DNA of 33,830 nt. It comes from an uncultured Bacteroidales bacterium (GTDB taxonomy: Bacteria > Bacteroidota > Bacteroidia > Bacteroidales > UBA932). Below are positions 9,981 through 23,634 of this stretch, piece after piece. The stretch is from positions 1 through 33,830 of the forward strand of contig CAJODQ010000018.1 in NCBI GenBank assembly GCA_905233345.1, written 5' to 3'. The notes beneath the pieces were generated by a model. It searched no databases, was not told where the DNA came from, and saw only the letters and a list, made by a program, of their open reading frames with translations. Position numbers and translations under genes: made by a program. Every line of letters starts with the position of its first letter. Within the stretch, counting starts at the first letter, position 1.

Positions 9981-10577
9981 CTATCTGTGACGCAAGGCCA
10001 ATTCGCTTTCGATGTCGGCCAGCGAGACGCCCATCTGCTCCATCAGCACCAGCTGGTGGTAGAACAGGTCGCCCATCTCGTAGATGAAGCGCTCCCGGTT
10101 GCCGTCCACGGCCTCGATAACTGTCTCGGCCGCCTCTTCACCGACCTTCTTGGCGATGGCCTTGACCCCCTTGATGAAGAGCTTCGTTGTATAGGACCCT
10201 TCCGGAAGATCCCGGTGCCGCTGTCGGATGATCGTCTCGAGCTCGCCCAGAAATCCTTCCGCGTCCGGCGTGTCGAAACAGCTGCGCGTGCCCCGGTGAC
10301 AGACCGGTCCGTCGGGAATGGCCGTCACGAGCAGCGTGTCGTCGTCGCAGTCCCTGTACATGTTGCAGATATGCAGGTAGTTTCCGCTGGTCTCGCCCTT
10401 GGTCCAGAGACACTGGCGCGTGCGCGACCAGAACGTGACAAGGCCCTCCGCGCAGCTCTTCTCGAAGGCTTCGCGGTTCATGTAGCCCAGCATCAGCACC
10501 TTGCCGCCGCGGGCATCCTGGATGATGGCGGGAAGCAGCCCGCCGTTCTTTTCGAGTTTGAAATCGTCAAATTGCAT
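9981..10577 (-). CDS. hisIE: Bifunctional phosphoribosyl-AMP cyclohydrolase / phosphoribosyl-ATP pyrophosphohydrolase
   Basis: Catalyses the second and third steps of histidine synthesis. Residues about 1-105 are the HisI cyclohydrolase (MLGYMNREAFEKS, TFWSRTRQCLWTKGETSGN, metal-site region GPVCHRGTRSCFD). Residues about 110-198 are the HisE pyrophosphohydrolase (PEGSYTTKLF, KKVGEEAAETVIEA, EMGDLFYH). Total length of 198 residues is normal for fused HisIE. It is the last gene of the his operon, 12 nt after hisF. Confidence 0.97.
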   Translation of the reverse strand: MQFDDFKLEKNGGLLPAIIQDARGGKVLMLGYMNREAFEKSCAEGLVTFWSRTRQCLWTKGETSGNYLHICNMYRDCDDDTLLVTAIPDGPVCHRGTRSCFDTPDAEGFLGELETIIRQRHRDLPEGSYTTKLFIKGVKAIAKKVGEEAAETVIEAVDGNRERFIYEMGDLFYHQLVLMEQMGVSLADIESELALRHR

Positions 10578-10589
10578 CGCTTCTGGAAA

Positions 10590-11360
10590 TTAAGAAAATC
10601 GAACAGGCACACCGGCCTCCCGGAGGGCTTCTTTGACCGCAGGGATGCGGAGTGTGCCATAGTGAAAAATGCTGGCGGCCAGCGCGGCGTCCGCCCGGCC
10701 GGTGGTAAGGACCTCCACGATGTCCTGCAGGCAGCCTGCGCCGCCCGAGGCGATGACCGGGATGGACAGCAGTTCGTGCAGGCGGGCGTAGAGCGGGCAG
10801 GCAAAGCCCTGCTGCGTACCGTCGTGGTCCATGGAGGTGAAGAGGATCTCGCCGGCTCCGCGCTCCTGCGCTTCTTTCGCCCAGGAGAAGAGCTCGCGGT
10901 CCGTGGCGACGCGGCCGCCGTGGGTGGTGCAGCGCCAGGTCGGGTTGGGGATATCCTCGCTCTTCCGCGCATCGATGGCCACCACCACGAACTGGCTGCC
11001 GTACTGGTCCGCGATGCGGCTGATCAGCGAAGGATCCGCCAGTGCGGCGGAGTTGAGAGAAATCTTGTCGGCCCCGGCGTCCAGCAGCCTGGCTGCGTCG
11101 TCGAGCGATGCGATGCCGCCGCCCACGGTGAAAGGGATGTCGATCTCTCGGGCAATCCGTTCCACCAGCGAAGCGAAGGTCTTGCGGCCCTCGACCGTGG
11201 CGCTGATGTCGAGGAAGACCAGTTCATCAGCGCCTTCCCGGGCGTAGAAGGCCCCCATCTCCACGGGATCGCCCACCTGGCGCAGACCTTCGAAATGGAT
11301 GCCCTTTACAACCTGTCCGTCTTGGACATCGAGGCAGGGGATGATGCGTTTTGCGACCAT
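10590..11360 (-). CDS. hisF: Imidazole glycerol phosphate synthase, cyclase subunit
   Basis: A 256-residue TIM-barrel enzyme that uses ammonia from HisH to convert PRFAR to imidazole glycerol phosphate and AICAR. It starts MVAKRIIPCLDV with the catalytic Asp; the second catalytic Asp is in VVVAIDAR. Phosphate-binding loops VGGGI and ASGGAG are present. The start codon lies inside hisA: the two genes overlap by 55 nt in different frames, far more than the 4-nt overlaps elsewhere in the operon. Confidence 0.97.
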   Translation of the reverse strand: MVAKRIIPCLDVQDGQVVKGIHFEGLRQVGDPVEMGAFYAREGADELVFLDISATVEGRKTFASLVERIAREIDIPFTVGGGIASLDDAARLLDAGADKISLNSAALADPSLISRIADQYGSQFVVVAIDARKSEDIPNPTWRCTTHGGRVATDRELFSWAKEAQERGAGEILFTSMDHDGTQQGFACPLYARLHELLSIPVIASGGAGCLQDIVEVLTTGRADAALAASIFHYGTLRIPAVKEALREAGVPVRFS

Positions 11361-12076
11361 AAGGCAATGTCTTTCAGGGTGATGTGATTTTCATAGATGG
11401 CTTTTCCCACAATGGCCTTCGGGATTCCTGCGGCGTCAAGGGCGCGGAGGTCGTCCAACGAGGAGACGCCGCCGCTGGCCGAGAGCGTCAGGTCGGGGAA
11501 ACTTTGGCGCAGAGCGGCGTAGAGCCCCACCGAGGGACCCTGCAGCATGCCGTCCCGGCCGATGTCCGTGACAATGGCTTCGCGTAGCGGCGCGCTGCGA
11601 CGGCCGGTGAAGCGGCGGAACAGGCTTTCGAGGGTCATCGCCGATTCCTCCAGCCAGCCGCGCACGGCGACCCGGCCGTTCCGCACGTCGGCGCCCAGAA
11701 TCATCCGGGCGCCGTAGCGCGCCAGCCAGCCTTCAAAACGTTCGGGCTCGAGGGCGGCTACGCTGCCGATGATGGCGTGGGTGGCACCGGCGTCGAAGAG
11801 CCGCTGCAGGTCTTCGTCTGCCGCCAGGCCGCCGCCCCATTCGAGTTCGCAGGAGACCTTGGCGGCAATGGCTTCCAGCGTGGAGAGATTGCAGGGCCGG
11901 CCCGCTTTGGCGCCGTCCAGGTCGACCAGGTGGAGGCGCGCCACACCGCAGTCGGCGAGGCATTGCGCCATGTCGACGGGGGAGGCGTCATATACCTTGA
12001 CCGCAGCGTAATCACCCCGGGTCAGGCGGACACAGCGTCCGTCGATGATATCGATGGCAGGAACGATAGCGGTCAT
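11306..12076 (-). CDS. hisA: Phosphoribosylformimino-5-aminoimidazole carboxamide ribotide isomerase
   Basis: A 256-residue TIM-barrel isomerase of histidine synthesis. It shows the catalytic AIDIIDGRCVRL near the N-terminus, EWGGGLA, VTDIGRDGMLQGPS with the second catalytic Asp, and SASGGVSSLDDL. The normal end of the family is near AIVGKAIYENHITLKDI. The frame then runs about 18 residues further (NASSPASMSKTDRL) through the first codons of hisF. Its start overlaps the hisH stop by 4 nt. Confidence 0.97.
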   Translation of the reverse strand: MTAIVPAIDIIDGRCVRLTRGDYAAVKVYDASPVDMAQCLADCGVARLHLVDLDGAKAGRPCNLSTLEAIAAKVSCELEWGGGLAADEDLQRLFDAGATHAIIGSVAALEPERFEGWLARYGARMILGADVRNGRVAVRGWLEESAMTLESLFRRFTGRRSAPLREAIVTDIGRDGMLQGPSVGLYAALRQSFPDLTLSASGGVSSLDDLRALDAAGIPKAIVGKAIYENHITLKDIALWSQNASSPASMSKTDRL

Positions 12077-12660
12077 AGGCTGAGGAAGTTTTGAAGGATC
12101 TGCTGCCCGACGGCGCCGCTTTTCTCGGGATGGAACTGCGTCCCGTAGAAATTTTCGTAGCGGAGCGCTGCACTGAACAGCGTGGAACCATGCCGGCAGG
12201 TTGCCGTCGTGTCGGGGCAGAGGGTGGGATAATAGGAGTGGACGAAGTAGACGTACGCGCCGGCGGGGATGTCTTTGAAGAGTTTCCCGTCCAGGTTGCC
12301 GAGGGCATTCCAGCCCATGTGCGGAACACGGATCTCCGGCTCGTCGGGGAAACGTTTTACATGCGCATCGAATACGCCGATGCCTTCCACGGATCCTTCC
12401 TCGGAATCGCGGCAGAGCACCTGGAGCCCGACGCAGATACCGAGCACGGGACAGCGCAGGGAGCGGATGACGGGAACGAGCCCTTTTTCGCGCAGGCTGT
12501 CCAGGGCGCGGCCCGCGTGGCCGACACCGGGCAGGATGACCCGCCCGGCCGCCCGCAGCCGCGCCGGGTCGGCGGTGATTTCATAACGGGCGCCCAGTCT
12601 TTCGAGGGCGTTGGCGACCGAGCGGATGTTGCCGGCCGCATAATCGACGATGGCGATCAT
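12073..12660 (-). CDS. hisH: Imidazole glycerol phosphate synthase, glutamine amidotransferase subunit
   Basis: A 195-residue class I glutaminase that feeds ammonia to HisF. The catalytic triad is visible: nucleophile Cys76 in LGICVGLQ and the His-x-Glu pair in TQFHPEKSG near the C-terminus. The oxyanion loop PGVGHAG (about 44-50) is present. It overlaps hisB upstream and hisA downstream by 4 nt each, which suggests coupled translation. Confidence 0.97.
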   Translation of the reverse strand: MIAIVDYAAGNIRSVANALERLGARYEITADPARLRAAGRVILPGVGHAGRALDSLREKGLVPVIRSLRCPVLGICVGLQVLCRDSEEGSVEGIGVFDAHVKRFPDEPEIRVPHMGWNALGNLDGKLFKDIPAGAYVYFVHSYYPTLCPDTTATCRHGSTLFSAALRYENFYGTQFHPEKSGAVGQQILQNFLSL

Positions 12661-16068: not shown

Positions 16069-16956
16069 CTACGGAATGATTTTGTCGATACCCAATACCA
16101 GGATGCCCTCGGCGCCGATGGCCTTCAGCTGGCGGATCTTCTGCCAGAGCAGGGATTCCTCAATCACAGCATGCATGGCATACCAGCCCTTCGCAGCCAG
16201 CGGCATGATGGTCGGGCTGCGCATGGCGGGCAGGATCACCACGGCTTCGTCGATGGCGCTCTCGGGCAGGTTCATGACCAGATACTTCTTCTTGCTGCTT
16301 ACCACCGCCGAGTCAATGCGAAAGAGGATTTCGTTGAGCAGTTGCTGCTTTTCATCGGTCAACGCGGGACTGGCCACCAGCACCGCTTCGGAGGGGAAGA
16401 CCCGTTCGACTTCCTTGAGCCCGTTGGAGATCAAGGTGCCGCCGGAAGAGACGATGTCGAAAATGGCATCGGCGATGCCGGCCGCCGGAGCCACCTCGAC
16501 GGAGCCGGCGATGATTTCGATGATGGCGTCCACCCGGTTGTCGGCCAGGTAGCGGCGCAGGATGTTCGGGTAGGAGGTGGCGATACGCTTGCCGGTGAAC
16601 CACGCGGGACCGTCGCAGTCTTCCGTTTTCGGCACGGCCAGGGAGATCCGGCATTCGCCGAAGCCCAGCTGGCGCACGATACGCAGCGGAGATCCTTCCG
16701 GCGTCCCGTCCGGGCTGTGCTCCGCCACTTCGTTGAGGCCGACGATGCCCAGGTCGGCCGTGCCGGCCGCCACGACCTGGGGGATGTCATCGTCGCGCAG
16801 GTAAAGTACTTCGAGGGGGAAATCCGGCGCCTGGGCGAGGAATTTCCGTTTGCTGTCGTCGATCCGGATGCCGATGTCGCGCAGCAGCGCCACACTGTCT
16901 TCGTTCAGACGGCCCTTGGCCTGGATGGCCATTCGCAAGAGGTTCATATCAGACAT
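16069..16956 (-). CDS. hisG: ATP phosphoribosyltransferase, long (HisG-L) form
   Basis: The first and committed step of histidine synthesis: condensation of ATP and PRPP. The 295-residue length is that of the self-contained long form, with a C-terminal regulatory ACT-like domain (about 220-295) and no need for HisZ. It contains AIQAKGRLNEDSVALL, YLRDDDIPQVV, DLGIVGLNEV, RIATSYPNILRRYL and the phosphate-binding DIVSSGGTLISNGL. The ATG at 16956 directly follows the U-tract of the attenuator; MNLLRM at 16947 is an alternative start. It is separated from hisDC by 2 nt. Confidence 0.97.
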   Translation of the reverse strand: MSDMNLLRMAIQAKGRLNEDSVALLRDIGIRIDDSKRKFLAQAPDFPLEVLYLRDDDIPQVVAAGTADLGIVGLNEVAEHSPDGTPEGSPLRIVRQLGFGECRISLAVPKTEDCDGPAWFTGKRIATSYPNILRRYLADNRVDAIIEIIAGSVEVAPAAGIADAIFDIVSSGGTLISNGLKEVERVFPSEAVLVASPALTDEKQQLLNEILFRIDSAVVSSKKKYLVMNLPESAIDEAVVILPAMRSPTIMPLAAKGWYAMHAVIEESLLWQKIRQLKAIGAEGILVLGIDKIIP

Positions 16957-16990
16957 AAAAAAAATGGGACCTGCGTTTTCGGCAAGTCCC
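16957..16990 (-). terminator. his attenuator: intrinsic terminator before hisG
   Basis: On the minus strand GGGACTTGC (16990-16982) pairs with GCAGGTCCC (16974-16966), a 9-bp stem with one G-U pair and a 7-nt loop. It is followed by A and then eight T (16964-16957). The T-run abuts the hisG ATG at 16956. A terminator between a promoter and the first structural gene indicates regulated readthrough. Confidence 0.9.
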
Positions 16991-17022
16991 GTATTATTGG
17001 TTATTAACTTATTGTCAATCTA

Positions 17023-17087
17023 AGAAATACGCCGGCCTACCGCATTGGGAAAATGTGGTGGGTATGGTGGTGCCAGCTGTTATTTCT
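17023..17087 (-). promoter_or_regulatory. his leader RNA hairpin enclosing the His codons (1:2 structure)
   Basis: On the minus strand AGAAATA (17087-17081) can pair with TATTTCT (17029-17023), and GCTGGC (17077-17072) with GCCGGC (17036-17031, one G-U). This gives a 13-bp helix broken by a small internal loop. The His codons lie at the top of this hairpin. CGTATT (17031-17026) can instead pair with AATACG (16995-16990), whose last base starts the terminator stem; a bulged C-G extension would take two more terminator bases. The two states are mutually exclusive, as in classical attenuators. Pairings were found by eye. Confidence 0.7.
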
Positions 17088-17099
17088 GCGAGCGATCAT
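17037..17099 (-). CDS. hisL: Histidine operon leader peptide
   Basis: A 20-codon frame starting ATG at 17099-17097 and ending TAG at 17039-17037. It contains the run WHHHTHHIFP: five histidine codons among six consecutive positions (CAC CAC CAT ACC CAC CAC, 17072-17055). The start is 5 nt downstream of a -7 promoter element, and the frame ends before the his terminator. Ribosome stalling at these codons when charged tRNA-His is scarce would open the enclosing hairpin and favour readthrough into hisG. No Shine-Dalgarno sequence is evident. Confidence 0.88.
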   Translation of the reverse strand: MIARRNNSWHHHTHHIFPMR

Positions 17100-17103
17100 G
17101 CTG

Positions 17104-17111
17104 CAAATATA
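17104..17111 (-). promoter_or_regulatory. -7 promoter element of the his operon
   Basis: The minus strand reads TATATTTG followed by C, 5 nt before the leader-peptide ATG, giving an almost leaderless leader peptide. No convincing -33 TTTG lies at 19-21 nt. It starts 27 nt after the stop of the upstream gene. Confidence 0.65.
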
Positions 17112-17137
17112 GTGGTTTTTTCTCAAGTTGTACTTTT

Positions 17138-18610
17138 TTATTTCCAATGATAGCCGCAGCGAATGGAGAACTGGTCGTACTTGGCGTCGAAGGTGAACTT
17201 GGTGTCGGGGGAGAGGAAGAAGTTGTTGAAATGGGCGCCGAGGCGGGCCATGAAGAGGGGAATGCCCAGTTCGCAGGCCGTCGCGCCCCAGAGCAGATTG
17301 CCGTAGTTGTAATTGTTGTGCGCCACGTTGCCTTCCACGGTGGTCCGGGTGATGTAGAGCACCTGGTTGAAGATGTCGTGTTGGTTGTTGACAGCAAAAT
17401 CGAGCAGGCCGCCGTACCGGCTGTTGCGAATGATGTAAAAGCAGCCTTTGAACAGGCCGTGGTGTGCCGGATCGAAAGCTCCGGCTTTTTCCAGGCTGGA
17501 CCGAATGTCATCGGCCTTCCGGAGTTCAACTCGAGTGTCGAGCCCGACGTCTGCCGGATCGTGCACCGGATCGGCGAAGCGGGCCGTCAGCGGCTCGTTT
17601 CCGTATCCCTGCCAGAAAATCACCTGGTTGTGGACCTGCGCAGATTGCACCCGGCAGAGAAAAAGCCCCGTCTGGTCGAAGAGGAAATTCTCGCCCTCGA
17701 AAGCATCTACGTCCAGATAGGGATCCGCCGCGCAGTAGTCGTAGGCGCGCAGCACGCGCAAGCGCTCTTCCGCGGGATCGGGCGCCATCCAGCGGAAACG
17801 CCGCGGATCCCGCGCGCGGAAGCTGGCACTTTTGCGGTCTTTCACCAGGAGGGGCTGCCGGCCCAGGGAATCGTAGGCCAGGTAGCGGACGCAGGTGTCC
17901 ATCTTTTCATTTCCTTCGGCGAAAAGCAGGATTTCGGGGCGGAGATAGCTGGTGTCGGTTCCGGGGAAGAAGCCGTAGCGGACGGCGGTGGAGTCGGTTC
18001 GGACGGAATCCCGCCAGTGCGTCATCGTCAGGATGGCGCCGGGCATGCCCCGGGCGAGCAGGGAGTCGGCCATGGGTCCGAACGATGCATCGGCACAGAA
18101 CGGATAGGTGTAGCGCACGCGCTCGGCCGGCTGGCCGCTCTGCCAGCGGACGATCTCCAGGGGATAATGGTGGCCTTCCTGGTCCGAATAGACAATGCTG
18201 CTGCCGTACACGCGGGGTGCGGGCTGCAGGTGCTCGACGGTGACTTCCGTGGGATAGTCGGTTTCGCTGAGCGTGACGAACTGGTAGCGGGTCCGTTTCA
18301 GCAGATGCTCTTCGCCGTCATATTCATCTTTCTGCACCAGCCGGGACCCATTGTACCGGTTGACGATAACGGCTACCGTTCCGTTCGTGTCGCTGAGTTG
18401 TTCGTGCACAATGGCTTCGCCCGAGAGGGAATCCACTTCATACGAGAAGCTCCGCGAGCGGAGCAGCTTTCCGGTGGAATCCCGGTAGTTGAACGGGCTG
18501 TACTGCCGGACCTGTTCCGGATGGCCTTCCAGCAGTTCCTGCGCACCGAGGGACCCCGCCAGACTCAGGCTGGCCAGGCACAGGCACAGGAAATACCGGT
18601 ACGTTGTCAT
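17138..18610 (-). CDS. Exported protein of unknown function
   Basis: A 490-residue protein that I do not recognise. Residues 1-23 form a signal peptide ending in LAGSLGAQ, so it is exported. Residues about 25-260 are rich in short charged beta-strand-like repeats (for example RSFSYEVDSLSGEAIVHEQL). The last 120 residues are rich in Asn, aromatic residues and Gly (NVAHNNYNYGNLLWGA) and end in CGYHWK, reminiscent of a small beta-barrel or membrane-associated end. Its ATG overlaps the stop of the preceding exported-protein gene by 4 nt, so the two form an operon and may act together. Confidence 0.75.
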   Translation of the reverse strand: MTTYRYFLCLCLASLSLAGSLGAQELLEGHPEQVRQYSPFNYRDSTGKLLRSRSFSYEVDSLSGEAIVHEQLSDTNGTVAVIVNRYNGSRLVQKDEYDGEEHLLKRTRYQFVTLSETDYPTEVTVEHLQPAPRVYGSSIVYSDQEGHHYPLEIVRWQSGQPAERVRYTYPFCADASFGPMADSLLARGMPGAILTMTHWRDSVRTDSTAVRYGFFPGTDTSYLRPEILLFAEGNEKMDTCVRYLAYDSLGRQPLLVKDRKSASFRARDPRRFRWMAPDPAEERLRVLRAYDYCAADPYLDVDAFEGENFLFDQTGLFLCRVQSAQVHNQVIFWQGYGNEPLTARFADPVHDPADVGLDTRVELRKADDIRSSLEKAGAFDPAHHGLFKGCFYIIRNSRYGGLLDFAVNNQHDIFNQVLYITRTTVEGNVAHNNYNYGNLLWGATACELGIPLFMARLGAHFNNFFLSPDTKFTFDAKYDQFSIRCGYHWK

Positions 18611-23407: not shown

Positions 23408-23415
23408 TATATTTG
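23408..23415 (+). promoter_or_regulatory. -7 promoter element of the btuB operon
   Basis: TATATTTG followed by C, placed just before the riboswitch. The direct repeats occupy the -33 region; there is no clean TTTG. Confidence 0.65.
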
Positions 23416-23418
23416 CAG

Positions 23419-23593
23419 CCGATTTCGGTGTCCGTGACTTCCGGCCGGAAGTACGGATGAAAAGGGAATCAGGTGAAAAACCTGAGCAGACACCGCTGCT
23501 GTAAGTTCCAATCATGGTTTCGGCATTCATCAGCCACTGCCCAAAGCGGGAAGGCGCCGGAACGGGGACAAGCCAGAAGACCTGCCGAATCGG
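23419..23593 (+). ncRNA. Cobalamin (B12) riboswitch
   Basis: The leader closes with P1 pairing CCGATT (23419-23424) with GAATCGG (23587-23593). Inside are the conserved core GGGAATCAGGTG with a hairpin to CCTGAGC, the ACACCGCTGCTGTAAG stretch, and the B12 box AAGCCAGAAGACCTGCC at about 23570-23586. Adenosylcobalamin binding would reduce expression of the operon that follows. The btuB ATG at 23635 is 41 nt beyond P1. No strong terminator is visible after it, so control is probably at translation initiation. Confidence 0.95.
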
Positions 23594-23634
23594 TTGTTTT
23601 TGAAGCTTTCGGGTAATAAAAGCTTCCGGAATAG

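Follow-up and report, generated by a model that had tools for sequence, protein, structure and literature searches.

A probable histidine-codon attenuator before hisG in a Bacteroidales genome, with counterparts in many Bacteroidota

What sets the expression of a histidine operon whose first gene is preceded by a short histidine-rich reading frame and an intrinsic terminator? The window analyzed here, a stretch of 33,830 nt, is contig C18 of a 2.32-Mb genome in 68 contigs that is 89% complete, and close relatives of its HisG come from metagenome bins labelled Bacteroidales, Rikenellaceae, Bacteroidia and Alistipes, among others. Its minus strand carries a compact his operon opened by hisG, in the order hisG-hisDC-hisB-hisH-hisA-hisF-hisIE. 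The hisG product, ATP phosphoribosyltransferase (16069–16956), matched Pfam HisG and HisG_C, and hisD (histidinol dehydrogenase) and hisC (aminotransferase) were identified by Pfam as fused into a single 784-aa frame (16066–13712). HisB (352 aa, 13715–12657) has imidazoleglycerol-phosphate dehydratase at its C-terminal side, the only part matched by Pfam; its N-terminal extension opens with MKKALFIDRDGTLL, which we take to be HAD-phosphatase-like, as in bifunctional HisB. The glutamine amidotransferase gene hisH (12073–12660, Pfam GATase) was named by context, hisA (11306–12076) and hisF (10590–11360) both matched Pfam His_biosynth and were told apart by order, and hisIE (9981–10577) matched PRA-CH and PRA-PH.

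From its sequence and that of its relatives, the element before hisG is very probably a ribosome-mediated transcription attenuator of this operon, and the switch would most likely activate the his genes only when ribosomes lack sufficient histidine. Neither the N-terminal domain of trpE nor ilvD was found in the 89% complete genome, and the host is possibly a tryptophan and branched-chain auxotroph that has retained histidine synthesis, its his operon being complete. Homoserine dehydrogenase is present in the genome; scans of the 1.6-kb stretch around the start of its frame returned no Thr-rich frame and no terminator.

Leader, hairpins and terminator of the window

The original prediction had placed a -7 promoter element, a 20-codon His-rich leader and a terminator whose T run touches the hisG ATG within 155 nt of the minus strand, and all three are present. 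The -7 element, TATATTTG (17111–17104), has the TAnnTTTG consensus, which occurs 17 times on the two strands of the window compared to 5.3 expected and can thus usefully mark promoters in this genome. A convincing -33 element was not seen. The first TTG going upstream begins just 15 bases ahead of the -7 element, less than the -33/-7 spacing of B. thetaiotaomicron, whose promoter element is centred at -7 (PMC7366714). The leader begins with an ATG 4 nt after the -7 element and runs for 20 codons, MIARRNNSWHHHTHHIFPMR, to a TAG (17099–17037), with five His in six positions (HHHTHH) in the regulatory codons CAC CAC CAT ACC CAC CAC (17072–17055). It is the sole short frame of the window with at least five His in eight codons, and one other has at least four. 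Leader peptides submitted to Pfam (three) and NCBIfam (four) belonged to no known family. The terminator, GGGACTTGC-CGAAAAC-GCAGGTCCC, consists of a hairpin (16990–16966), an A at 16965 and eight T (16964–16957) adjoining the ATG at 16956.

Two further pairings had been predicted, and each needed adjustment. The hairpin described as 13 bp and enclosing the His codons is present in the fold, with 14 pairs including one isolated pair; it joins region 1, AGAAATA.C.GCTGGC (17087–17072), to a 3′ arm, GCCGGC.G.TATTTCT (17036–17023). The alternative pairing of CGTATT (17031–17026) with AATACG also exists in the fold, but as the tip of the antiterminator and not the whole of it. We rejected it as a complete antiterminator because one base is common to it and the terminator, and in the MFE structure the two largely occur together. 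The base of the antiterminator is formed by region 2, CGGTAGGCC (17042–17034), which overlaps the leader stop codon (17039–17037) and begins one base past the 12 nt that a ribosome stalled at the last His codon would cover. Region 2 pairs with GG.A.CTTGCCG and thereby consumes the terminator 5′ arm (16990–16982), which lies inside region 3 (AATACG plus GG.A.CTTGCCG, 16995–16980).

The 155-nt region folded with z = −4.1, and 0/200 shuffles were equally stable. We then folded the window RNA up to the terminator loop, before region 4, the partner of region 3 in the terminator, exists. Without a ribosome the 1:2 hairpin formed and region 3 was essentially free. When a ribosome occupied the first, third or last His codon, CGGTAGGCC-GG-CGTATT (17042–17026) paired with AATACGGG-A-CTTGCCG (16995–16980) at −20.1 kcal/mol; with a ribosome on the UAG this pairing was impossible. 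Pairing of the whole arm in the stalled state, reached by 1/30 shuffles, is stronger evidence in the window than the 2:3 duplex on its own, which 17/100 shuffles matched. When region 4 was included, the terminator won at equilibrium even with a stalled ribosome, so that the decision must be kinetic, with kinetics or pausing assumed, as it is in other attenuators.

From a leader, a terminator and coevolving 1:2 and 2:3 pairings obtained by sequence comparison, we infer a start site, leader translation, ribosome stalling, kinetics and a histidine response as follows. Transcription would start at or near the leader ATG. With ample His-tRNA the ribosome would reach the UAG and cover region 2, so that regions 3 and 4 could pair, and the resulting terminator would halt RNA polymerase just before hisG. 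With scarce His-tRNA it would stall in HHHTHH and break the 1:2 hairpin; the exposed region 2 could then capture region 3 ahead of the synthesis of region 4, and polymerase would read on into the hisG-hisIE operon.

Recurrence of the leader before hisG

We compared hisG loci of related genomes, 352 in number once a duplicate of the window and two loci belonging to another gene had been removed. Three with upstream sequence shared with another locus and one with less than 150 nt upstream were dropped. Of the remaining 348, the family supplied 47 (all of its hits, the window among them), the order beyond it 48 and the class 65; 78 loci with the window's HisG type came from elsewhere in the phylum. 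Another 78 are named loci, which overlap the family set in some of their species, and 32 have a divergent HisG, 30 of these belonging to a single family (f18). The class and phylum sets drew on 149 of the 250 non-own matches, two of which were assigned to the order and four to the divergent type. Sampling outside the class began with 25 partly hand-picked loci, including four with divergent HisG and no leader, to which 87 further loci and 30 of the divergent type were later added. A leader was scored as a frame of 6–60 codons with at least three His in eight codons, no more than 330 nt upstream of hisG.

The original prediction had proposed a search of relatives as its check, and most of those with this HisG type do carry a His-rich frame before hisG (265 of 316 loci, the window among them, vs. 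16.0 in shuffles), mostly with a terminator (called in 236 of the 265, with 203 of these beating all 20 shuffles). Raising the threshold to at least four His in eight codons left 236 of 316 loci, compared to 0.8 in shuffles, and when 20 amino acids were compared in the first 233 loci, His was far ahead of the other 19. By group, the frame was present in 41/47 family, 39/48 order, 64/65 class, 66/78 phylum, 55/78 named and 0/32 divergent loci. Outside the class a terminator was called in 49 of the 66 leader loci, and only 25 of the 49 beat all shuffles. Isolates with a leader include Phocaeicola coprophilus (MIFTATHHHHHHHYLTNER, L141) and Carboxylicivirga linearis (L134).

The leader is not universal. 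No His-rich frame was found within 330 nt upstream of hisG in 51 of the 316 loci, among them L003 (HisG 69% identical) and L078, a close relative (71%). The first 233 loci, four divergent ones included, contained 50 misses. In 20 of these a frame of at least 100 codons, on the same strand as hisG, ends no more than about 200 nt from the gene, and in two a His frame lies further upstream (L076, L126). The loci with divergent HisG (L216, L217 and L327–L355 in family f18, together with L214 and L215) are about 31–34% identical to the window's protein. Given their lack of a leader, and its presence in most but not all outside-class loci with the window's HisG type, we rejected the description "present throughout the phylum" in favor of widespread. 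The many relatives with the element suggest that such a switch is common in the phylum Bacteroidota.

Some loci showed part of the arrangement. A terminator-like hairpin precedes hisG in L035, L046 and L048, which have no His-rich frame by the criteria used; L035 resembles a decayed leader, and L036–L042 are similar loci.

Coevolving pairings and the position of the ribosome

A segment complementary to the terminator 5′ arm sits between the His codons and the terminator. Since this segment was chosen as the best duplex, the pairing was tested in two ways that are free of that choice, with permutations that keep shared ancestry among loci in place. In the first, partners were swapped between loci. 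Native 2:3 pairs scored 18.8 vs. 14.4 for swapped pairs (sd 0.22; 0/2000 permutations; 173 loci), with like results within family, order, class and phylum; in the enlarged sets the values were 18.2 vs. 14.2 for the class and 13.8 vs. 10.9 for the phylum (0/1000 each). The 1:2 pairing gave 21.0 vs. 17.0 (sd 0.25; 0/1000; 170 loci) and also held in the enlarged class and phylum sets.

The second test was anchored on motifs, in the 74 loci where GGYRRG and CYTRCC could be found independently. The −1:+1 columns were Watson-Crick in 47 of the 74 compared to 20.5 expected, with all four pair types represented, and the core Y:R pair was present in 53 compared to 37 expected. Of five further flanking columns, three leaned in the right direction (observed value reached in 324, 681 and 214 of 5000 shuffles) and two did not (3036 and 3913), while slid controls were near expectation (lowest 538/5000). 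Tandem His codons in a leader, a terminator, a coevolving antiterminator and a competing 1:2 hairpin are thus all found by sequence comparison, which supports the classical his attenuation that the original prediction had read from the one genome.

An independent short transcript, or the upstream gene, could instead end at the terminator, the His frame being incidental and hisG expressed from elsewhere. The upstream gene indeed ends at 17138, only 26 nt before the -7 element. However, 236 of the 316 loci of this HisG type have both His frame and terminator ahead of hisG, the antiterminator pairing coevolves, and the window has no TAnnTTTG in the interval separating leader and hisG, which makes this explanation highly unlikely. 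Histidine runs can bind metal, and the peptide might accordingly be a functional small metal-binding protein cotranscribed with the his genes; yet leader peptides vary widely in length and residues apart from the His run, and what is conserved around the run are RNA pairings, leaving this an extremely improbable reading.

We also folded 236 loci in three ribosome states. The terminator 5′ arm was at least half paired upstream in 211 loci with a stalled ribosome and in 49 with a ribosome at the stop codon, two loci running in the wrong direction between these states. Without a ribosome it was at least half paired in 108 of the 236, and untranslated RNA would therefore not reliably terminate. 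This last result is what would be expected if the element responded to leader translation generally, through any stalling or slow initiation, and not to histidine specifically. Against that, the run is specifically His among the 20 residues tested, and the spacing between region 2 and the His codons varies fairly little, whereas the stop codon shifts position; a general response has only a slight chance of being correct. For the 161 of 173 loci with stalled-state arm pairing, the distance from the last His codon to the start of region 2 had quartiles of 11, 13 and 15.5 nt, and mean pairing was 0.71 for native sequences compared to 0.47 with shuffled spacers (first 173 loci).

Leader starts, known attenuators and implications

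In 165 of 236 loci a perfect TAnnTTTG is found no more than 55 nt ahead of the leader start (118/168 vs. 5.5% of shuffles in an earlier set), and an SD-like 4-mer precedes only 2 of the 236 leaders. Leader starts fall into two spacing classes: the gap from the G of TAnnTTTG to the start codon was 4–8 nt in 32 of the 165 loci, 10 nt in one and at least 13 nt in 132, with none below 4 nt. The short class (for example L002, L004, L009, L047, L064, L073, L081, L107, L183 and L213) is scattered. With an element centred at -7, a gap of 4–8 nt corresponds to a 5′ UTR of about 0–5 nt, and spacing indicates that the window leader, with its 4-nt gap, is probably leaderless or nearly so. Passages of PMC7366714 and PMC9723704 give frequencies of about 3.7% for 5′ UTRs shorter than 10 nt and 5.5% for leaderless mRNAs.

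A variant was seen in f24, a family that lies outside the class. A His-rich leader, frequently with a large number of His, is present in all 35 of its loci (for example L202, L205, L247, L252, L262, L270 and L293), and in 22 of the 23 loci with TAnnTTTG it starts 4–5 nt after the motif, mostly with GTG. A strong terminator arm was found in 0/35 by the criterion used, compared to 20 of 43 for the remaining loci outside the class. Downstream of the leader stop, the first 80 nt are C-rich and G-poor, with C minus G above 0.1 in 30 of 35 loci vs. 7 of 230 other leader loci. The composition is consistent with f24 possibly having a Rho-dependent, leaderless his leader. The fuller picture, in which the Bacteroidota his attenuator is old and widespread, a recurrent class including the window lies on leaderless mRNA, and f24 has a Rho-dependent leaderless version, is tentative, and we give it slightly less than an even chance.

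Known RNA families did not account for the element. No Rfam model matched the window leader or 20 relatives above gathering, and no T-box model was among the Rfam matches of the leader regions searched. RF00514 (His_leader) had no match at E ≤ 5 in window positions 16900–17200. A match to FopS (19.6 bits, gathering 56) is below threshold and was taken as chance. Elsewhere in the window, a cobalamin riboswitch (RF00174, 105.6 bits) lies at 23408–23603 on the plus strand.

The HisL attenuator has tandem His codons in a short leader and alternative terminator/antiterminator structures before hisG. Bacteroid-trp, for its part, is known as a leader-type element. Vitreschak et al. (2004) reportedly name Bacteroidetes/Chlorobi in their abstract. 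The enterobacterial his attenuator (HisL, RF00514), as a passage of PMC9413887 describes it, and the element found here are alike in their tandem His codons and terminator/antiterminator before hisG, but the latter differs in its TAnnTTTG promoter, its rarity of SD-like 4-mers and its apparently leaderless start in part of the lineages. The same 2022 paper adds further Firmicutes His attenuators (Bacillus cereus group, C. difficile group and Erysipelotrichales), which, in the passages that treat them, likewise have a His-rich leader and a comparatively predicted terminator/antiterminator and are also missed by RF00514; they cover six, five and six species, whereas here the leader was found in 210 of 238 family, order, class and phylum loci. 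A passage of an earlier paper (PMC2965389, 2010) knew of no leader-peptide system outside Proteobacteria and Actinobacteria before its own His leader of bacilli.

Within Bacteroidota there are hints of comparable systems. Bacteroid-trp (RF01692), which was not found in this genome, is listed in a table passage of PMC2864571 among candidate cis-regulatory motifs, with Bacteroidetes as its host group and trp as the source of its name; it differs from the present element in gene and sequence. A transcriptome study of Flavobacterium psychrophilum, a member of the same phylum, reports strong indications that leader peptides upstream of amino-acid operons act by attenuation (PMC9723704, 2021), in a passage that leaves his unnamed and holds no cross-phylum comparison or pairing covariation, and leader-like sORFs appear for B. 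thetaiotaomicron in a passage of PMC7366714. The literature searched, in which coverage of earlier comparative work is incomplete, contained no description of a Bacteroidota his attenuator. The original prediction's claim of novelty in this phylum was somewhat overstated in view of the passages of PMC9723704 and PMC2864571 and the reported mention by Vitreschak et al. (2004). In kind, the element is the known classical his attenuator; its geometry and reach are not described in the literature searched.

The attenuator adds a large phylum common in the gut to the lineages in which an amino-acid operon is apparently read out by ribosome stalling. It also provides comparative evidence that in Bacteroidota, which seldom use Shine-Dalgarno sequences, transcription and translation would be close enough for a stalled ribosome to decide termination. 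Because cultured members with the element exist, such as the P. coprophilus isolate, this coupling is directly testable, including in the apparently leaderless class.
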